This document shows positions 8,301 through 45,170 of a stretch of 64,000 nt of DNA, piece after piece. The notes beneath the pieces are model-generated. The model had not been told where the DNA came from. It did no database searches and saw nothing but the letters and a program-made list of their open reading frames with translations. The stretch spans positions 135,163,990 through 135,227,989 of the forward strand of contig CP136067.1 of NCBI GenBank assembly GCA_032622095.1. Reading direction: 5' to 3'. Origin of the DNA: Siphonodentalium dalli. Its lineage: Eukaryota; Mollusca; Scaphopoda; Gadilida; Siphonodentaliidae. Position 1 is the first letter of the stretch. Each line of letters starts with the position of its first letter. The position numbers were made by a program, and so were the translations under genes.

Positions 8301-11300
8301 ATAATCAATAATTTGAAAAATGATCAAGGAAATATGGGTTGATACAAAAATCGGACTTGGCACTGAAAGGGTTAAATAATATTTTTGTCAAAATGTAAAT
8401 ATGGAATGTGCAAAATAATTTTTTTCTATATACACGACCCTACACAAAATCTCTAACAATATATATGAATGAAAACTTCATTATTTTATATGTTACCTGA
8501 CATCAAATGCCTAGCCATTTGTGGTCAGTGGTACCAGACAATTGATTGTCTGTTTCATCATCTCATTGAAATAAAAAGTATATTATTGTGCACCACCATT
8601 GTAAAGAAAACAATGAAATTTCAATTGGCCCAAAGTAGCTTTAATTAAAAGTTTGAGAGTTTTCCGAAATTTGTGATTTGTATCACCACAATGCTGGGAA
8701 CTCCATATTCAAGTTAAACACCAACATAGCAATGACACTCATGCTAGGAATGCCGTATCCAAGGTAAACACCAACCAGGAAGTTGTGCAAGATAAGATAG
8801 GGAATTCCCTGTATAATAATAGTACAGGTTATTTATGGGGAATCCCTCTGTGACTGAGTAAATTCTTAAATAACTGCGCAATCTTTCTCCTGCATTCAAT
8901 TGTATCTAGGGTTTAATCCCGGGACCGGGAATTCCCGGGTTCCCGGTTCCGGCAGTCGGTCCCGATTCCCGGGAAATTCAATTAGCAGAACCGGGAATCA
9001 AAGTCCCTATAAAATTAGCGTAATACCGTCTAATACGTTCGATATTAGAACCAATATATTATTTCTTTTCATAGAACATAACGTGAATATTAATGTCTGC
9101 CCTCACGGAAGCAGGGTCAACAATTTAAAGAGTCATGACTCATGATTGGCATCGACGCATTCTGGCATGATGCTGCACATGCACAGTCGCGTCACTCACG
9201 AGTCACTCACTTGTGATCCATGTGTCCCAGTCGCAGACTCGTTAGGTCACGGGACTCACAGAGTCACGGCCTCACAGGATGAACATGGTTGTGTAATGCC
9301 ACAAATTCCACAATGTGTATACGTGACAATTGACAAACGTGAGGCACATTGAGCAATTTGATTGTCTATAAAGTATAAATAAGAATGACGCAATTCACGT
9401 GCGGATTGCAGACAGTGCAGTATAAAACTATAAATAAGAATGACGCAATTCACGTGCAAAGGCTCAAAGGTTGGGAGCCTGTGAAGTGCATGACGTCAGA
9501 TTTCTCAGAATCATTTATTGTGTACTGCTCAATGCTCACCTGCAAATCTGCAATGGCTGCAAATCAGCTGTGATTATATAACAGACTAAGTTTACCACCG
9601 AATTTGACCGAATGGCTAACAGGCAAAATCTATCGCCGGTATGGGAGTACTTTGAGAAAGTGCAGCCAGACAAAGCACGGTGCAAAAAGTGCATGAAGCT
9701 CCTGAGTGTTACCGGAGGCTCCACAGGGGGGCTGTTAAAGCATTTGCGATCGGTCCATGACATTTCAGTAAAACGGCCCACTGGACCAGAAGTGAAGACT
9801 GAAACATTGTCGCCTCAGAAAGTTCCCAGACAATTGTCAGTGGGTAACTTTTTTGTGAAAAAAGTGGACAGTCTTGGCAAGATTTTGGCGAAGCTATCTG
9901 CGGTTGACGGCTTCTCTATTCATGAGTAGCGAATACATCCGTGCATCGCTCAGCCGAGATGGGCACAATTTGCCCAGAAATCCAACAGACGCCATGCTTC
10001 TCATCCAGGGATTTGCAAAAGAAGTAAGGGAACAGATGGCCGTTGAATTTAAACAAAGAATTGCGGCAGGTGAAAGGTTTTCGTTAACACTTGACGAATG
10101 GACGAGCGTTAGAAACAGGCGATATATGAATGTAAATCTTCATGGATTCGGTGGGAAAGTATGGAACACGGGATTAAAGCGCGTGTTGGGGAAATTTACA
10201 TCAGAAGCAATGGTTGCGTCGGTCAGGGAACATCTGGCTGAGTTCAACATTGATATAGATTCTGACTGTGCTATTAGTACCAATGACGGTGCCTCTGTGA
10301 TGATAAAATTTGGTCGTCTAATGCCAACAATTCCCGTCGTTTGTTACAGTCATGGCATTCACCCCGCTGTGAGTGATATTCTGTACAAAGGCGAAACTAG
10401 CGATCAGAATGAGGATAACGAAACTGACGAGAATGTCGAAGTAGAAACTGTAGTGTCAGCCGAGGATCATGTCATAGATTCTGAGGACGACGATGAATAC
10501 CAGGAAGGAGCCGATATAACTGCCGAAGATGAAGACCCACCAGAATTGATAGACAGCTACAATGATTTGGTAAAGAATGTTTGGACGGACTGCAAGAAGT
10601 TTAGGCGCAGTCGGCTGACGAGATCTTGCAAACATACGTCAAAGCGGAACATGGCGAAGAGTTGAAGCCGATTTTGGACATTAAGACACGTTGGAATAGC
10701 ATAGAACAGATGTTTGCGGTTTTATAAAGCTCCGTTCGTGTATGGCCAAGGCATTCGTGGATATAAAATGCAGTTCTACCATCACAGATTCCGAGTTTAA
10801 ACGAGTTCACATGATTCAGGATACATTGCGACCAATAACTATTGCTAATGAAGCCCTCGGTCTTCGGGACATTACCTTTATTTCTGCTGATAGCATATTG
10901 GAATTTTTATTCAAACAGCTTGAGAATTTGAACACTGAAATCAGCACCCAAATGCTCATTCGCTTGAAAGATAGGCTGGCTAAACGCAGAGACAAGAACT
11001 TAGTATCGTTGTTACGCTATTTACACGACCCAGTCGACCCTTTGCGTGAGACCGGCAGCAGTACTTTCTTCGAACTTTCATCAAAAGCTGCACGTACTCG
11101 CCTGGTGAAATCGGAACTTGGTAGGATGAAACCCGCTGTTGACTTAGATGGAAATAATGATACAGAGAAGCAAACTTCGGACGGAAACCCCGTGGTTGCG
11201 AGCGTTGAAGAACCTGTGGTCACGACTGTTCACACCCTTGAACAGGAATGCCAGGCATATATTGATAAATCGGTGGCTACTCATAGTCATTCCGACAAGG

Positions 11301-14300
11301 ACGCGGAACCGAAAATAAACGCGGAGTTTAAACTATTCGAAGCAAACAAGGAAAGAACGCCCAATCTGAATTTCTTATTCGAGGCATTAATGAGTGGAAC
11401 ACCCACATCGGTTGAAGCTGAATGTTCCTTTTCGTAGGCTGGCCAGTTTGCGACAAAAATTCGCTCATGTCTTAGTGATCGATCGTTGTGCGATCTCCTT
11501 TTTCTAAGGAAGTACTTCGGCAGCAAAAACAGTTAACTGACTCAATGTGATTATGTGATTAATATCGCGTATTCAACTATTAAAAGTATTCATCAATTTA
11601 GTTATCTATTCTGTAACAGGAACTTGTTGTTACACATTTTAGTTGAGTGTTTACTGTTTAGTTGTTTACGCCGCAAAATTACGCGGTCGGAGACTCGGAA
11701 CTTCGGAAGTTAGGAACTTTGGAAGATGGTATGGTTTTATTTGTTTATTTTGATGAAAATAAGTCTGACATAAGAATATAAAGAATATGTTATGTGCCCT
11801 ACGTGAGTTTCTGTGTCACGAAATATTCAATTGTCAGTCATTCCTGTTGGTCTGTAAATTATACCCGGGAAAATTCCCGGTTCCCGGTTCTGATGACGTT
11901 TTCAGTCCCGGTCCCGGTTCCACAAAATCCGGGAATATATTAAACCCTAATTGTATCCAAGGTAAACACCAACAGCAACGGCGCTCATAATGGGAATGAC
12001 GTATCCAAGGTAAACACCAGCATAGCAACGGCACTCATGCTAGGAATTCCATATCCAAGATAACACACCAGCCCACATGGGGGAGAATGTATTTCAACAA
12101 GTAAAGTAGGTGCTTATTTTTAGTTGTCATTATGCGTGATATAGAAGAAATATTTACAAAATAGTTAATAATAAAATATAAACAGTATATAAATATATAA
12201 ATAAATATATACAAGTACAAATAACAATACACATAGTTAGCTGGCCTACAGCCAGTACTGGGCACGGCTGTCTGGTGTCAACATATTCTGTATTTGTTTT
12301 CTACGCCGATAGACTTCTGAAAAGGAAAGGCCCAGTGTCCCGAAACGGGTATATTTACCCAGTAATTTTCCGCATTGTTCTGGCATAAGATTCTTGAATA
12401 CCAACGTTTTCTTGAAGCCATTCTTTCCATGTAACTGTTATCTTGCCAACCAGTTTTTCAGTGCTGTGTAATTCAAATGCCATAATAAGCCATTCTCCGT
12501 AATCAAGGGAGGCATAGAGAGATACTGAATATGTTTTTTTTTGAGTAATCCATAGCCTGATTTTAAGATTATTCAATGTTGTCAAGGCTTGTAATTTCCA
12601 CATCAGATTGGCCCATTCTAACCATTGTCATTTCACAACAGGCAAACAGATGGAAGAAGAAGGGTTTATCAGTTGTTCCACTGAAGCGTGGCATAGATTG
12701 GGCGTCCTTTGAATACAATGTTTATGCCACCATCTATAATGGCGATGGATCAGTTGTGATTACACACGGCGGGATCGAGAGTGGACAAGGACTCAATACA
12801 AAGGTAGAGCAAATATATTTATCCACCGCTAGCTACCTTTAGTGCCTTTATAACACCTGCCTAATAAAGTTACGTTTATTACTTCAAGGTTAGGTAGCTT
12901 TATTAGGTCAACGTAGCTCTATTAGGTTAGTACTACTTTTATGATGTAAATTTATATGCAAATTGCACAAGTAACTAGGTATGTCAATCGGCCTATATGA
13001 CGTCATTGTGATTTTAAAATATTTTTATCGTCCATCAACTACTGTTATTGATACAAAATTAATAAACGGATATATATTTTAGCTCTAAAACATCAATAAA
13101 TCATCAGAACAAGGTCGGCTTAGAATAACTGTATAAAAAAGCCAAGACACTATTTCGCTCTGATCTACACTTTAGTTTGCCCATTTCATGAATACTAATT
13201 AGTTTGCTTGACCTCATAAATGTAAGGGCGTCATCGAAGTAACGAATGAAAAACTTAGGAAAATGACAGAATTCTCCCACAAAAGGCAAGCTTTGCACAA
13301 TGGATAAATAAAATATGTAGCTAATGCTATTGCTTAAATAGTTTATGTCAGCATCTATTGGACTTGATGGTTTTAACCCTTTGAGTGCCAGGTCGATTTT
13401 TGTATCAACCCATATACCCTGTGCCAATGCATTCTCTTATATATGCGAGTCGACCATAGGTCACCTCGCATATATAAGAGAATGCATTGGCCTAACAATA
13501 TATATATATATTTTTTTTTTTTTGATACAATTTTAATAATTTACTCTTATATCCTTTAACAGACTTATTTTGTAGGTTTAGGGCCGATGAGATCGGCCCC
13601 TAGCACTCAAAGGGTTAAGCGACATCACTAACTACATATTATATATATATTAGTATAGCTGGTAATATCATATCCAGCTTATTATTATTTCGCTGCCTCA
13701 ATCGATCCATTTCCACTAAACATTCAATTTTTATAAATGTTGGTGTTAATTCAGTATATTCCTTTTAAAGACATAATATGGATAATAAAAAAAATACCGG
13801 GCGTTCAATGCTAGTTTGTCAGATTTTACCGAGAGTTCAATTCTGTTGGAGCACCACGATTTGAAATCGGGCTTGTATATCGAGAAAACTCAGGAAACAG
13901 GGGCCAAACGTTAAGCGTGGTTTTCAATGGGATATTGAGGCATCCAAAACATGTCTTTGTTATTAAATACTACATCGTATAGTTTAGTGCTGGGACGGTT
14001 GTCCGGATAACCGGTTACGGTTTGGTTACACGTGTCAACCGGTTGGAGGAGGCCACAACCGGATAACCGTAATATTGATAACGATCGTACTATCATCGTG
14101 GTACTCCGTGTAAATGTTTCCGAAATCATTTACGGAAGTTTAAGTAATGAGAGTAAGCTGCTTAGAAGCGATTTGGACAGTTGATTGTGTATTCATATAC
14201 CCCACAACACATGCCTGTTTGATCACCGGCGGCTTTTCTAGACATGAAAACAACAACTACACTCTTATCTGTGTCAGTCTGTGAATCACTTGCTACACAT

Positions 14301-17300
14301 TCAATGCCAATTTCCTTTGGCGGCCTTACATGACGTTCCGGCTGCACGCGCACCACGGCATACATCAAAGCAATCAAGTCTAGACTTTTACAACGTCATC
14401 AACAGTATGTCTGTTTTCTTGAAACTGCCCCCCCCCCCCCCTTTGTCATTACCGGTATATACCATTAGTTCATCTCAAAGCGATGACAGAAGACCTACAC
14501 AAACGGAAATCGAACGTTTGGGGACATTTAGTCCTAAATTGAAGATGACGAAAAAAAAAGGAAGAAGAAATGGGCGGTATGCATGGCCTGCCGAACGCGA
14601 TTCGTTTATTCTGGATCAACATCCAATATGAAGTCGCACATCCAGAAAACACACAGGCCTACTGGGAGTGGGAAATCAGAGTATATCTAGTGATGTATTC
14701 GATAACTTTAATTCCTAAACACTGGCTGGGGCTTGCGTAATGAATCACAATGATTTAATTTTGTTTATTAAATAATTGAAATAACATTGTATAGCCACTG
14801 TGATTAATATATACCTGCCTATACCCAAACACTAGTAAACATTACTAAACAACAGTATACCTACCTTCAGTATCTTGTTTGGGCTAATCGTGCCCGGGAT
14901 ATACACAAGGGAGGAACTATATTTCGTCACTGAAGGTTTTGCAAGCAAGCGTTGTTTATGCGGTGCGGAACTCCCGTAAACATTGATATACTAGCGCACC
15001 ACTAATATATATTATATTTTAGTTTGTTTGGGCTCAAAACTGAATTAATTTATACACATTTACAACTATTTGATCGCCGTAACGGGAAAGCATTGTACGA
15101 CCAAGACATCGTCATTTGTGATCGCATGTATATCAACGCGGTTAACCTGTTATGGTTAGGTTAATGCCCGTGGTTAACAGGTTAGGAAAAAAACCCAACC
15201 GTCCCAGCACAGCTAGTATAGTTTGAAAAATGTGCTTTTGATCGCAAACGTGACGTGTTTTGAGCACGAAAATAGGAGGTTTAACCTTGATTGACAAGAG
15301 AACTAGACATGACACTGAAACGAAATTAGTACGAAAATGTAGCGGAACATACCCATCATCGAGGCAGATTGGCACCCGGGCTGGAATTTTTACACAATTG
15401 GGGGTAAAGACGAAAATATACGTACCGTAGTCAGTCTGAGGTGAGCGACTTTTGTTTATGGCTGTTTACCGCAAACCAGCGTTCACTTCCGTCCACACAC
15501 AGTGATGTTCATACATGATTTAATCTTATTATCTGAAAACACTAGTGCTCTTCACGGTAAGTGTAATGAAAACAGCTATTTACTGTAACATTTTATGTTT
15601 ACATACAGTGTACATAACACAAATTTCAACACGCCACATCTCGCTATTGGAGGGATATTGATAATGGAAATAAGAATAACGTATATATTTTCTGACTTCG
15701 TCTTGATAATATTGATTACTTTACAGAATTTTATGTTAACCCTATTGTGATGGGAGCTGCGCTGGTGCAGCATTAAAACCCCTGTGCCAGTGCATTCTCT
15801 TATATATATTCTCCCATAGGGAGCATCGCATATATAAGAGAATGCACTGGCTTACGAGGTACTACAATCTGTTCAGGGTCTTGTTGAGGTGTTCTTTAGT
15901 TATGTCCAGGCTTTCCCTGGTTTTATATTGGCAGTTAGCCCTTTGAGGCTTACTCCATTTGGGAGCGCATAATGGTGGGTAAAGTCAACAAATATAAGGA
16001 GAGTCAGCAAGCAATTTTCCTCTCTACCACAGGTCCTCAAGAAGAATAATAACAATCCGAAACTTGTTTCTAGCAAAGGATTATTCATTGTTTGTGATCT
16101 TCGCTGTAGATTAATATCTCCTTAGACTTTTATGTTAATTCGCTTTCAATGAATATTTTGGAACTGAATAGGTGAATGCATTAAAAAATAAAATACCTAT
16201 TTTTAGTAGATAGATATATTTGATTGATGGTTTATTAATGTTTATTACACTCCTATGCGCAATTTCCATTATTCAACGTTGTTAATTAAAAATGGTAATG
16301 TCACTAGTGAATTATGTCATTTCCCGTGACGTCATTGACGTTATGTCGCTTACTGATCCAGACTGAATTTTCGATGGTTGATCTTTCTCCACATTGGGAA
16401 TTTCATGCATTAATTCTATGTTTTTTAATCATATTTGGCTAACCAAATTGATGCAGAAGTGTAATAAATGGAGTAATCAATTAGTTCCGAGAATAACGTT
16501 CAATAATTCACTCGAGGCGAGAGACGTTTGGTAAGAAACTTGTGTGCTAACGCGCACTTGTTTCTAACCGTCGTCTCTCACCTCTTTTGAATTATCTAAC
16601 GTAATTCTCGGAACCAATTGATTACTCTCTATATATAACATTATTTGGTGTCACAGAACAAACAGCATGAACTAACATTTATGCAAATGGACATCGGTAA
16701 AGATGACACTAAAGGTACTATGAACTAGTTTCAGATATATCTAGTTATACATATATGTATATATATCACATAATTAGCCCCTAAACCCAGCCTCATATAT
16801 TTTAGTATATATATTTAGTATTATCGCATTACACAATGTCGTCAGAGTTCAACGCAACTCTATTTTAATGTTAATCTCATATATATTTTGAAGACCTCTG
16901 TTTGTCTGTCTGTATGTTTGTTTGTCTGTCATTTATACAAATCTACGATTCTCGACCGATCGGGACGAAACTTGGTACGTGTGTGTAGTTTGACCAGGCG
17001 GTGGACGTTGTCGTATTGGCGAGCCCATGCGGCGCCCGCTTCGCGCATGCGCAGAAGAGATCTCGGAAATGGGTGGAGCTATCGACTTGAAATTTGCTAT
17101 GTGAATGTATCTTGCCCCGGATACGAATTTTATCGGGTCGCCGAGCCCGTGCGACGCCAGCTTTGCGCATGCGCAGACGAGATCTCGGAAACGGGTGGAG
17201 CTATCGACTTGAAATTTGCTATGTGAATGTATCTTGCCCCGGATACGAATTTTATCGGGTCGCCAAGCCCGTGCGACGCCAGCTTCGCGCATGCACAGAC

Positions 17301-22961: not shown

Positions 22962-25900
22962 TGCCCTTGGATGCTTCCGGCGCCCCTGCCGAACAAGTCC
23001 GTAATATATCTTTAAGTTATGCATTAATTTTCCTTCCTCAATCAGGGTGCTATCGAGTGCTGTAAGAAACTAAATGAAGCCATCCAGCCGGTGAGAACTA
23101 AGTATCCTGACTTACAGTGGAAGGAACTCATACAGAAATGCTACTCCGAGAAAGTCGATCTCACTGCTCGCTACATGTGAGTTACAAGCCTGCAAATAGT
23201 GGGTCTGTCATTTGCAGAATGAGGTCCCCAGAGGGTGAATTTGGTGATGCTATCCCGCACAGTGGGCTAGCATCTCCAAATTCACCTTCTGGTGACCTCA
23301 TTCTGCTTAGGCCTCATCTTCTAGGAAGTATCTATAGTCTCAAATTAACATTGTTTTTAGTTACTTTTTCCCTTCTGGGAAGTTTCTATATCCTCTAATT
23401 TGCAGAAGATCGAACGCATAATCGGGTGACTAACAAGTGAACACCACCAACTTCAACTGGGGAAGTTTAATCTGATCCTAGGTCTCCCATAGCAGTTGAG
23501 GCCTAAGCAGAATGATGTCCCCAGAGGGTGAATTTAGTGAGGCTAGCCCACTGTACATATTTTCTGATGCACATGATGTCGAACTCGTGTTATATTATTG
23601 ATCAAATAATAGGGACACATTCCAGCATTACCCAGCCTGATTATAGTGTGTCTGTCATTTTCAGAATGAGGTCCCCAGACGGTGAATTTAGTGATGCTAT
23701 CCCGCATAGCATCACTAAATTCACCCTCTGGGGACCTCATTTTGCTTAGGCCTCATCTTCTCTGGAAACTTTCTTTGTTATAAAATTTCTATAGAAACTT
23801 TTTTAGTTGTGACCTCATTCTGCAAATGACAGGCACACTATAATCACGCTTGAGTATAACAGTTATTTCATGACCTCCACTGAGATTGTACTCATAATAT
23901 ACAGTAATGTCCTAAATAATCGACTCCTCAACCACAGCAGAATTATGGGTAATTTTTCAGGATTTAGTCGGAAATATTGCTTATTGCCATTCATCGGAAA
24001 GCTCTCAGTGAGAGCTTTCCGATGAATGGCAACAAGCCATATTTCCGACTAAATCCTGAAAAGTTACCCATAATTCTGCTGTGGTTAAGGAGTCGATTAT
24101 TTAGGGCATTACTGTATTATTACTTTTGCAGGCTACGGCCAGAGGATAGATATATATTCCAGTATAACACATATGGTGTGACAGCCACGGAGGTTGAACT
24201 GGACGTGTTAACAGGAGAACATCAGATTACAAGAGTCGACATTCTCTATGATTGTGGCGAGAGGTAAGGTTTAAAGATCTGGAGGATGTTGATGGTGGGT
24301 AAAACCACCATAAACGGAAAGAATACTAAAATAAAGACAGGCTTTGTTCTTAAACGAATCGTAAAAATATCTCGTAAATAGCATGTTATTGTCAACTCAT
24401 ACATTGTGTAAACAAAGAAGACAGTCTGTTACAGAAGCTTTGTATATAAACTAACATTCGGAACCAGCCAAAGTCCAAAGAAGATTTTCCTCTTTTACTC
24501 TATTGTCTATAGAGTGCACTGTGGAAGGTGGAGATCAAAGTCATGGTGGCATGCACAGCAGTCTCATTCAAATCACACCAAGTCTCCTTTTAATCGACCC
24601 ATACTGCCCGCTGTGACTTCAAAATCCAGCTACTGTACGTTACTTCATAGTTGGAGAATGATCAGACAGAAAACGTGTACCTAACTTCATTTTTAGTCCC
24701 CTCCTCACTGAAACTAACCCCAACCACTGGGGAGAAACAAGAACAACTTTTAGCGGATTATTCTCTTCTTTTATATATTTTAGCTTGAATGCTGAGATAG
24801 ACGTTGGACAGGTAGAGGGTGCGTTTGTAATGGGACTTGGTTATTATTTGCTAGAGAAGACTGTCTATGATAAAGAGTCTGGTGAACTGTTATCAAATCG
24901 GACATGGGTATGTTATATAAAGTGTGAACTGTTATCAAATCAGACATGGGTATGTTATATAAATTGGACATGGGTATGTTATATAAAGTGTGAACTGTTA
25001 TCAAATCAGACATGGGTATGTTATTTAAAGTGTGATTATCAAATCGGACATGGGTATGTCATATAAATTGGAAATGGGTATGTTATATAAATCTGACATG
25101 GGAATGTTATATAAATCTGACATGGGTATGTTATATAAAGTGTGAACTGTTATCAAATCAGGCATGGGTATGTTATATAAAGTGTGAAATGTTATCAAAT
25201 CAGACATGGGTATGTTATATAAATTGGACATGGGTATGTTATATAAAGTGTGAACTGTTATCAAATCAGACATGGGTATGTTATTTAAAGTGTGATTATC
25301 AAATCGGACATGGGTATGTTATATAAATCAGACATGGGTATGTCATATAAATTGGAAATGGGTATGTTATATAAATCTGACATGGGAATGTTATATAAAT
25401 CTGACATGGGTATGTTATATAAATTGGGTATGTTATATAAATTAGACATGGGTATGTTATATAAATCAGGTTTGTTATATAAATCATACATCGGTATGTT
25501 ACATAAAGTAGAATATAATCCCCCATCATAAAATAAAAAATAGTTAATATACCTTTCTATGATAAATGTACTCTCCCACTCAGTTTGAACGATCTATTTT
25601 TCATTTGGAGGGACGTTCAGGTAATAAAAACGGACAAAAAACAAATAATACAAGAGCAGAATGATTCCTATTTATAGGTCGGAAATGTTCAGATAATAAG
25701 TTCAACAAACGACCTAAAGTCTTTTGTAGACTTATTGTCTAAACATTTCCAAAGGGAACTACTCATCAATGAGTATTTAGTATAGAAAGGGAATCAAGAC
25801 CTTTGAACTTCAAAGGCCTTTATTCCTTTTCCATACTTTTCTATATACAATGTATTGCAATACAATACTTTAGACATGTAATTGCCCTATCCCAGCTTTG

Positions 25901-28900
25901 AGGTACAGTAATGTCCAAAATAAACAACCCCTAACCACAGCAGAATTATAGGAAATTTTTCATGATTTAGACGGAAATATGACTTGCTACCATTCGTCCA
26001 AAAGCTTTCAGTGAATGGCAACAAGCCATATTTTCCGACTAAATCCTGAATTTTTTTACATAATTCTGCTGTGGTTAAAGGGTCATATACTTCTGACATT
26101 ACTGTAGGTTCATCTGAACTAACATAAATTTTATAAAAGATTGTAAAAACAACTACCATCAACAAGTCAATGTAAACTTGGATCGCCTTTTCTTTTGTTC
26201 TTTCTTAATAACTAACCAATAACGAGATTTCACAAGTCAAAACCATTGTTATGTATACATTATGGTTGCTGTGGCAGTACCGATCAAAGCCCAAAGTCCA
26301 TTTAGTCCAGTAATATACCAAGGTTTACTTGACAGTAAACATTGGAAAAGGTCAAAGCATTGAAAATTATTCTGAAAATCATATTCAGACTGAAACAGTT
26401 TAAATTACTACATGATTGATGATGTTTGTTGACAAATCACTGTCACAGTTTTGTTTGTATAAAAATAATTTCAACATGTGAATTTTTGCTATTGGAGAAC
26501 TATCAATAATGAATAGTTTATTTCTTTCTCCATGATCTTAGGCCATTAAATTAGATTCAGTAATGCCCTAAATAATTTAATATCATGAATATATAGTGAC
26601 ATAGAACATTATTAGCTGATCATTATAGTCTGGTGTACTAATTATAACTCCAGAACAATTGAAAGGCATTGGAGGAAATTTAGGATCACATGCTGTATAA
26701 TAATGGAGAGGTGTCAATTTATAGACAACAATAACAATTGTGAATAGTCAGGGGCATTAGAACATTATAGGTAATCCCTATGCATATACTAGTAACACAT
26801 TGTAATTTTTATATCAGATTAATTAAATGAGTATATGCAGAACAAAGTTTCCTCTACATTTTCTGACTATTACTAGACAATTGAAGCTATCATAATTCAT
26901 GCTTACAATGTGCACCAAAATTAAAAAATAAAATTAAAGTCCTCCCTCCCTCGTTGATTCAGAAAAAAAAAGGTCTGAGCTGGTCTGAGACTCAAATAAT
27001 TATTTTTTTGGCCTAAAGTTTCCATGTCTTAATGAGAATTATATCCACACAATTTGTTATAAATCTGTGGGTTATATATAAATTAAGGATAAATGTGATG
27101 GACAACAGTCCTGATTCAGTATATTGCTCATGTTTAGTGTCTCTGGTGAATATGGGACTAAAATAAATAGTTTATGTGGAAATACCTGACTCCTCAAAAT
27201 AATAATTTGAAATAAATAATATATATGCCTCCCTCATCACTTTGAAAAACATATTCTCTGAGAAACTAACTTTATTTTGTTTATCGAGTCAAAATTATAG
27301 AAATTTATTGGCAATTTGCAGCTATTGCAGAGAAATCAAAACCTGTTTTGCTGTTTTGATAAAATCCATCACTTCAATAATTACAGTAATGCCCTGAATA
27401 ATCAACTCCTTAACCACAGCATAATTATGGGTAACTTTTCAGGATTTAGTCGGAAATATGGCTTGTTGCCATTCATCGGAAAGCTCTCAGTGAGAGCTTT
27501 CCGATGAATGACAACAAGCCATATTTCCGACTAAATCCTGACAAGTTACCCATAAATCTGCTGTGGTTAAGGATTTGATTATTTAGGGCATTACTGTAAT
27601 CATGTCATATATATATCATCTTGAACTTTCTTGTCATTACCACTTTCAATACATGAGTTAAGTTAATGCATATTTATGCTTATTTATAAAAAGTTTATAA
27701 ATTTATTTTGTAGAATTATCATCCACCGTCGAGTAAAGATATCCCAATAGACTTCCGAATCCACCTGTTGAAGGATGCTCCAAATCCTGTGGGAATTCTT
27801 AGGTCAAAAGGTAGGAATCACAATTCTCAGGCAATAATACCTGTATAATAATAGTCATGTCAACGTGTTAAACATACACATTATGTTGGATACCTAGTAT
27901 ATTATATATATTAATTTATAAATTTTATATAATTACAAAGTGTAGTATCTAATTTATAGTCAAAATTGAATATATATTTGAAACAAGGTGATATTGTTGA
28001 AACCTTGATGTCTATTTTGATAGTTTCTGAACTCTGCTGAGCAAGTGAGTATAGATCGTAGCAATAACTGAAAACTAGCTATTTAACATGCTCTGGGCCT
28101 TTGAGATTACATTTAAAAACAAATGCCATCTTAGTAAATTACCTCAGTAAAACCATTTCTGAGTTATGAGTGATGAATTGTGATTAAAAACTGGTAATAA
28201 TTTAAGCTAATTTGTTTAATTACACGTCCCAAAGCTGTGGGGTTCCCTATTTATTACTCATCATTCTTTACAATAAAATCAAATATATTAAAGGATTATA
28301 ATGGTGTAGTTTTCTCAGTCATTATCAATGACCGCTTATCCACTGAGCACTTTGCCATAAAGATTTTTGTGATAGGCTCCCCAAAGTAATGCCATTCTTG
28401 ATCGTTAATGTTCCCTCTTGTGACGTCACAAGAGGGACTAGGTATTGGATTTTATCTACCGATGGTAATCAATAACTGATTGTTTATACAGAAACGGCTG
28501 ACCATCGGAACTGAAAAAAATTGTATATATGGGTAATTTGACCCATGGAATCTTAATCAACTTTGATTGGTTCTGTTGATACCAGATGTCTTAAAAGGCC
28601 ACTAATAATTTATTTAGTTAACTATTTAATTATATATCCAAAATTATTGCAATCTGCAGGTCAGTGAAAATTGAAACACGGGGATAAATTGACAAATAGA
28701 GTGTAATTAAATAAATGCCGTTGACCGCAGATGACTTAAAGCAGAAAATATGAGCAATAAAGAGCATTCATTGTGTAGGAAAATTGGTACAGATGGGTCG
28801 CCAGACTAACACATCTATCCTAATTCAATTTGCGAGCTGTATAAACACGGCATGACATACATGTAACCTCTGGCTAATACTCTCCCTGTCATACAATTGT

Positions 28901-31900: not shown

Positions 31901-34900
31901 TTACTAACATCGCCGAAAATTTGAAGCGAATCGACCATACAACTCCATAGAAAACACCGTCTGAACTACGCTCAATTGTAAATATTTACATCTCGATTCG
32001 GGACGCATCTATCGGCGATAAACTAACGAAAACGATTTCGCCATCGAGAGTGACTACATTTAATAAATATATAAGACTGACGTTGTGTGTTGTAAATTTG
32101 GATTAATATTTATAAAAATAACTACTTTGAGGAAGATTATTCTCCATTGCTATATGATCACCCAACTGGAGTGTTTCACATCACTTTAATGTAGGATTAA
32201 TGGCCCATGATGGATATATTCAAGATATATCTCTCACGGGTCATCTTCCCACAATAAATTCTTTATGTGATTGTAAAGCAAAGGGCGACGCCTATTAATC
32301 ATACTCACGTTGAATCGTGTTACATAAGGCCAAAAAAAAAAAGTGTTTTGGTTCTCGGGCAATTTTTTTTTCAAATCAATGAGGGAGGGAGGGTTTTATT
32401 TTTATTTTTTATTTTTTTTCTGCACATAGTAAGCATGGACAAAGATACCTTCCTCTGTCTAGTAATAACCAGAAAGGTAGAGGGAACTGTTACGCATATA
32501 AACTCATTTAGTCTTGTATAAAAATGACATTGTACTACCAGTGTATGACTGAGATTACCTAACAATGTCAATATATAATGCCCCTGACATTAACTACTGT
32601 TATTGTTGTCTAAAAACTGATACCTCCCCATTCTAATATGTGATCCTGAATTTAGTCCTGTGCCTTTCAATTGTATAAAGTTACAATTAGTGTAAGTTGT
32701 TCACAATGACTAATTGTAAGAAGAGCATGAGGATCAGCTAATAATTTTCTTAATTGTAGTCATCTACTTCATGTTGTAAGCCTGCAAGTCACTTTTTAAC
32801 ATATTACATGTTAGAGCTCAATGCACACTAATATTCAACACATATCTGCTATGGACATGTTGATAAAATCCAAACAAAATAAAAAAAGTTTTTTTTTTTT
32901 TTTTCAAATTTATTTTTTCGTAAGTTTTTTTGTCATAACATCAGGCATTGCAATAAAAAGGCCTAATGCGGCCCTTTTTATTCAATGCGGCGGGGCCTGA
33001 GAACCAAAACCTTATTTTGTTTTGGCCTAAGTAAGAATTTTTTTTTTGTCAGCTAGAGTTGATTTCAGAAAGTTCCTTGACTTCTTTCCAGCTGTTGGTG
33101 AGCCACCCCTTAATATGAGTTGCTCCGCCCTGTTTGCTCTGAAACACGCTGTTGAATCAGCTCGGGAGGAGATTGGCAAAAATTCTCATTTCCAGCTAGG
33201 TAAGGCCATATAAATAAAAGTTATGTTTTCTCATGCACCTCCTTCGTCACTCAGGCACCTCCGTCGTCACTCAGGCACCTCCATCATCACTCAGGCACCT
33301 CCGTCGTCACTCAGGTGCCTCCCTCATCACTCAGGCACCTCCGTCGTCACTCAGGCACCTCCGTCGTCACTCAGGCACCTCCGTCGTCACTCAGGCACCT
33401 CCATCATCACTCAGGCACCTCCGTCGTCACTCAGGCACCTCCATCATCAATCAGACACCTCCGTCATCACTCAGGCACCTCCTTCATCACTCAGGCACCT
33501 CCGTCATCACTCAGGCACCTCCATCATCACTCAGGCACCTCCGTCATCACTCAGGTGCCTCCGTCGTCACTCAGACTTGTCACTCAGGCACCTCCATCGT
33601 CACTCAGGCACCTCCGTCATCACTCAGGCACCTCCATCATCACTCAGGCACCTCCGTCATCACTCAGGCACCTCCATCATCACTCAGACACCTCCGTCAT
33701 CACTCAGGCACCTCCGTCATCACTCAGGCACCTCCATCATCACTCAGACACCTCCATCATCACTCAGGCACCTCCATCGTCACTCAGGCACCTCCGTCAT
33801 CACTCAGGCACCTCCATCATCACTCAGGCACCTCCGTCATCACTCAGACACCTCCATCATCACTCAGGCACCTCCATCGTCACTCAGGCACCTCCGTCAT
33901 CACTCAGGCACCTCCATCATCACTTAGGCACCTCCTTCATCACTCAGGCACCTCCGTCATCACTCAGGCACCTCCATCATCACTCAGGCACCTCCGTCAT
34001 CACTCAGGCACCTCCGTCATCACTCAGGTGCCTCCGTCATCACTCAGACTTGTCACTCAGGCACCTCCGTCGTCACTCAGGCACCTCTGTCGTCACTCAG
34101 GCACCTATGTTGTCACTCAGGCACCTCTGTCGTCACTCAGGCACCTCTGTCATCACTCAGGCACCTCCGTTATCACTCAGGCACCTCCGTCGTCACTGAA
34201 ATTTTCTTTTAAAAAGCCTCGTCAAACATTTTTTTCATAATTTTCTGTTAGAAATATTGGATTTGAATGACAAAGATAATTTATTTGGGTTACTGGAGTA
34301 TGTTTTCCAGATTTTGAGAAAGAAATACAAATTGAGATCTAATTGAATTGCCTGAGAACACACATATTTTATTTTAACCCTTTCGTGACGGGAGCTGCGC
34401 TGGTGTAGCATTAAAGATCCTGTGTCAGTGCATTCTCTTATATATTCGAGTCTCCCATAGGGAGCCTCACATATATAAGAGAATGCATTGGCTTACAACA
34501 TCAAGGTAAATATTGTTAGGCCAATGCATTCTCTTATATATGGGAGGCTCCCTATGGGAGACTCGCATATATAAGAGAATGCATTGGAACAGGGTTTTTG
34601 CAAAATTTCAGGAAGCTCCAGTCATGGAAGGGTTAATTGCCTAAGTGGTCATAAAATGGATGCAGAAAGATACAGATTAACACGATCAGTTTGTAGTGAC
34701 GAATTTCCCTGATGTCAGCATTAAATTCATTAATTTGTTTAATGCCATATTAGAAAGACTGGGTTCTTAGGCATATTGCCAATATTTTGCCCAAATATTT
34801 TCAGGAGAAATCTGGGGAATGTTATTGTTTTTTATCCTTATGGCATGCTGGAAATAAAATATTCTGTAGGTCGAAATCATATCTCAGAACTGAAAATGTA

Positions 34901-44728: not shown

Positions 44729-45170
44729 TAAATTGTCTAAATATCATGTATTTAGTATCAATTGTCTTAATGGCAATGCATTTAGTATCAGTTGTCTTAA
44801 TATCAATGTTTTTAGTATCAGTTGTCTTAATATCAATGTATTTAGTATCATTTGTCTTAATATCGACATCTTTAGTATCAGTTGTCTTAATATCAATGTA
44901 TTCAGTATCAATTGTCTTATATAAATGTATTTATTATCAATTGTCTTAATATCAATGTTTTAGTAACAGTTGTCTTAATGTAAATGTATTTAGTATCAAT
45001 TATCTTAATGTAAATGTATTTAGTATCACTTGTCTTAATATCAATGTATTGAGTATAAGTTGTCTTAATATCAATGTATTTAGCATCAATTGTCTTATAT
45101 CAATATAGTATACATCGTCTTAATATAAATATATTTGGTATCAATTGATTTAATATCAATGTATTTAGTC
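44729..45170 (+). repeat. 30-bp minisatellite, about 14 units
   Basis: The unit is TATTTAGTATCAATTGTCTT followed by AATATCAATG. Two short plus frames are products of it. Confidence 0.9.

Follow-up and report, generated by a model that had tools for sequence, protein, structure and literature searches.

Minisatellites built from exon–intron boundaries are already known as a kind, from the ‘mirages’ of amphioxus and from human IFI6, and the array described here is a further case. In the passages on which we draw, minisatellite-like duplications of exon–intron boundaries are described in the amphioxus globin genes BflGb6 and BflGb9, together with an earlier case in Adh3 whose units measure 10–72 bp (PMC3087553); TnC and PGBD5 are given as further mirage genes (PMC3902484). 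Mirage clusters vary in length, with somatic instability at Adh3, and the cluster edges in BflGb6 escape homogenisation (PMC3087553), while regular splicing is described as seemingly undisturbed (PMC3087553; PMC3902484). In IFI6 (6-16, G1P3), two downstream repeat units are described as being used as donors, with citation of Turri et al. 1995, and the minisatellite is described as giving three mRNAs and different isoforms (PMC4526556); this work is also cited by PMC2572611, PMC2915984 and PMC3618361. Our locus lies in a 64,000-nucleotide stretch of Siphonodentalium dalli DNA (‘the window’; all positions below refer to it), where the 3′ end of a coding exon in a relative of aldehyde oxidase and xanthine dehydrogenase has been copied, together with its 5′ splice site, into a tandem array.

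Several features place this array close to the described systems. As in mirages, the founding unit spans an exon–intron boundary, with 26 nt of exon and 16 nt of intron, and many, but not all, units keep the splice signal (GT in 19 of 21). The last two units are the most diverged, which would fit cluster edges that escape homogenisation as reported for BflGb6, although the comparison covers 18 core positions and the 5′ edge of the array is coding. Unlike the amphioxus mirages, the array sits in a different gene, contains a 260-nt higher-order block and offers three additional in-frame donors. It resembles IFI6, in which a minisatellite offers one exon several splice donors; here the extra donors are candidates, and the reading frames fit for the first three. 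Intron gain by tandem genomic duplication, as outlined in the accounts we draw on, likewise duplicates a segment with splice signals, but the copies here sit in an existing intron and no new intron is seen.

Array anatomy and a proposed origin

A preliminary description of the locus had proposed that the exon end and its 5′ splice site seeded the array, and the anatomy of the units bears this out. The relevant features are:

24784 to 24907, plus strand: coding exon, ‘exon 7’ in the numbering of that description, (S)LNAEID...ELLSNRTW, phase 0 at its 3′ end (phmmer and tblastn)
24908 to 24913, plus strand: presumed authentic donor GTATGT, score 5.91, 95.7th percentile
24882 to 25507, plus strand: array of 21 units, 1 exon-derived and 20 intronic, with lengths of 42, 38, 24 or 18 nt (repeat analysis)
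24882 to 25141, plus strand: first copy of the higher-order block, starting inside the exon (alignment)
25142 to 25425, plus strand: second copy of the block, identical at 256 of 260 aligned positions, with a 24-nt indel
25466 to 25515, plus strand: last two units, the most diverged (four and two core mismatches), continuing into AAAGTAGAATAT (alignment)

Exon 7 reads ...TCAAATCGGACATGG at its 3′ end (24907), and the founding unit of 42 nt comprises 26 nt from that exon end and the first 16 nt of the intron. The units that follow measure 42 nt (n = 5), 38 nt (n = 2), 24 nt (n = 11) or 18 nt (n = 2). Their last 18 nt, which we call the core, follow ATGGGTATGTTATATAAA, and 19 of the 21 units have zero or one core mismatch. 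The earlier account had recognized the repeat but put it at about 15 copies, fewer than the 21 units (one of them in the exon) and 19 donor-like sites found here; its higher-order block also stands, at 260 rather than 259 nt and with the first copy beginning inside the exon. The motif ATGGGTATGT occurs 16 times on the plus strand between 24904 and 25457 and once on the minus strand at 15347, giving 17 copies in the window compared with a shuffle mean of 0.25; none of 100 shuffles reached 17.

Amplification of this kind is confined to one of the 14 junctions of the gene that were tested. When patterns of 15–16 nt from 14 junctions were searched on the plus strand with up to two mismatches, the exon-7 donor pattern gave 20 matches including itself and the other 13 matched only themselves; thus, on that strand, no other amplified splice junction was found among these 13.

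The position of the first join can be located, because the 42-nt units link AAAGT to the exon's GTGAACTG, while the last unit runs into AAAGTAGAATAT. We infer that AAAGTAGAATAT is the original intron sequence. The exon part is the older one, because the homologous segment of the 7px0 protein aligns through NRTW to 24907, where the tblastn alignment ends. If the 18 nt between the AAA triplets of a 42-nt unit are deleted, the result agrees with the first nine letters of the 24-nt unit found at 25328–25351. In the origin that we propose, a tandem duplication would have carried the donor-bearing 42-nt segment into the intron, where expansion followed; one unit would have shortened from 42 to 24 nt through loss of the 18 nt between two AAA triplets; and further losses of 6 and 4 nt could have produced the 18-nt and 38-nt units, respectively. 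A recent duplication of the 260-nt block, which takes in the exon end, would complete the series. The two blocks differ by four substitutions and the 24-nt indel, and single units have variants of their own. This one sequence lets the founding duplication, the products of slippage and the recent copying of a block with coding sequence be read together.

The copied unit also carries other short motifs. Between 24908 and 25507 there are 18 copies of TATAAA and 16 of TATATAAA, which look like TATA boxes or weak poly(A) signals; AATAAA was not found in the array.

The host gene

The identity of the host gene comes from homology of exon peptides joined by eye. Exon borders were set by eye from homology and AG/GT, and exons on the plus strand were traced in this way from ~12.6 to 35.65 kb; the build is eukaryotic, with introns that have AG/GT borders. 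The joined peptides match PF20256 (MoCoBD_2) at 2.8e-64, placing a molybdopterin-binding domain in the product, and the best PDB match of the gene is 7px0, ‘Aldehyde oxidase 1’ (4.8e-83), which we take to be a fly protein. Exon 7 and the two exons after it match the same entry at an E-value of 6.6e-33 (phmmer). The exon downstream of the array is:

27714 to 27810, plus strand: ‘exon 8’, acceptor TTGTAG, N-terminal NYHPPSS (homology)

Rfam gave no matches, and a 110-residue piece matched nine NCBIfam families, none close to its cut-off, as expected of a fragment. A xanthine dehydrogenase tail had no significant match in the window (best E 0.59), and the last exon was chosen by eye from the match list of that search.

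Reading frames and strength of the donor copies

Splicing in silico from each donor-like site indicates which copies could be used without ending the protein early. Positions of note are:

24950 to 24955, plus strand: donor copy at +42, in frame, 14 residues added (frame test)
24974 to 24979, plus strand: donor copy at +66, in frame, 22 residues added (frame test)
25016 to 25021, plus strand: donor copy at +108, in frame, 36 residues added (frame test)
25064 to 25066, plus strand: first stop codon on read-through from exon 7 (open reading frame 24662–25066)

As claimed earlier, the three donors after 24908 are in frame at these offsets, and products from all four remain open to the natural stop; the described inserts of 14, 22 or 36 residues between NRTW and NYHPP are likewise correct. 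The other 15 of the 19 donors lead to a premature stop: from 25054 the frame is shifted and a stop follows within exon 8, and the 14 donors beyond it run into the stop at 25064–25066. In this test exon 9 was modelled with 3 extra nt at its 3′ end, one additional codon that leaves the frame unaffected.

By score, the donors are nearly interchangeable. GGTATGT or GGTTTGT is kept in 19 of the 21 units, a count that takes in the variants TCGGTATGT and CAGGTTTGT, and the remaining two units read GGAATG. With a human matrix, a score of 5.91 is shared by 18 of the 19 donors and the remaining one reaches 5.56 (95.7th and 95.3rd percentiles of 3527 plus-strand GTs). Weaker GTs in the array include the exon-internal GT at 24882 (5.1) and the AAAGTGTGA sites (4.38). 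With 19 near-identical donors in series, the locus is a natural experiment on how one of many equal sites is chosen for splicing.

Probable repeat turnover at a splice junction

We consider it probable that a 42-nt donor segment was duplicated and then expanded, and that the array arose mainly as a by-product when repeats turned over at a splice junction, rather than as a selected device. From the reading frames, the length constraint in the family and the amphioxus reports, we infer that most splicing starts from the upstream donor and that in-frame isoforms may arise at a low level. Under this model, 24908 would be the main splice site; the donors at +42, +66 or +108 could be used occasionally, adding 14, 22 or 36 residues; and transcripts spliced at donors beyond these would reach a stop too early and probably be degraded. 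The length constraint is seen in a set of 82 homologues made up of 7px0, one mammalian-type xanthine dehydrogenase and the 80 best-matching of 546 bacterial loci; none shows inserted residues at the W/N point. Across the 20 intronic units, which are not independent, the donor columns are conserved at 0.967 and the nine remaining core columns at 0.961; these values show no extra constraint on the donor.

Several observations pull the other way. First, the near-equal scores give the first donor no advantage. Second, its predicted local accessibility is unremarkable, with an unpaired probability of 0.047 and higher values at three later donors. Third, downstream donors of this sort are described as being used in IFI6. 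Finally, choosing bacterial homologues by best match biases the sample away from insertions, and two of the 82 homologues carry five additional residues at a point 12 residues before the junction; therefore, this loop is not wholly rigid.

Three ideas were considered and set aside. Concealment of the later donors by RNA structure does not fit unpaired probabilities that range from 0.001 to 0.067 across the 19 sites (region median 0.020). A selected donor array as the leading explanation was dropped with the conservation result above, a weak test given units that are not independent; the 15 donors that lead to a premature stop and the lack of an insertion at the junction in the 82 homologues also count against it. 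The in-frame offsets are not a sign of selection, as one founding 42-nt duplication and the 18-nt loss explain them.

Regular use of the first few downstream donors, as in IFI6, with isoforms carrying 14, 22 or 36 extra residues, is the strongest alternative but seems unlikely to us. In its favour, the donors at +42, +66 and +108 keep an open frame and score like the presumed authentic one, but the absence of an insertion at this point in the homologues speaks against it, and the in-frame state largely follows from the founding duplication, with the 24-nt unit derived by the 18-nt loss. A bolder form of this idea, which we regard as quite improbable, is that the length allele of the array sets which in-frame donors are available, so that the aldehyde oxidases of different individuals would be longer by 0, 14, 22 or 36 residues. 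If true, the extra residues would lie ~34 residues N-terminal to the conserved GEPPL motif, and an enzyme would be tuned by minisatellite length via splicing.

The array could instead be kept as a cluster of U1 small nuclear ribonucleoprotein sites that buffers splice-site loss or delays premature polyadenylation at TATAAA. Nineteen donor-like sites do lie beside the 18 TATAAA copies, but TATAAA belongs to the copied unit, AATAAA is missing from the array, the donor columns do not stand above the others in conservation and splicing at 15 of the 19 donors would do harm, making this explanation very hard to credit. Equally far-fetched is an assembly artefact in copy number or block duplication: near-identical tandem units are prone to mis-assembly, and a mirage in the draft amphioxus genome is described as aberrantly assembled (PMC3087553), but here four substitutions and a 24-nt indel separate the two blocks, and individual units have private variants.

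More broadly, such an array could represent a step on the way to a longer exon or a new intron.

Other repeats and elements in the window

A second minisatellite lies beside a later exon of the same gene. It consists of 49 copies of a 20-nt unit (CTCAGGCACCTCCGTCATCA) at 33230–34197 and starts 30 nt past the exon 9 donor (33200); the same search of plus-strand patterns found no copy of the exon 9 end. The acceptor-like CTCAGG occurs 41 times in 33203–34260, and the repeat has long open reading frames in all three plus-strand frames, one of them interrupted by a stop.

Elsewhere, reading frames in several pieces at 9582–11437 (plus strand) resemble, by eye, a hAT/ZBED-type transposase; two pieces scanned against Pfam at 0.001 gave no match. 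A near-perfect palindrome with 113-nt arms that are 94% complementary occupies 27377–27603, and related arms at 25904–26106 and, by eye, at 23920–24100 look like members with it of one fold-back transposon family resembling miniature inverted-repeat transposable elements. Finally, a tandem array of 15 copies of a 30-nt unit, with a 208-nt higher-order period, lies at 44731–45169.
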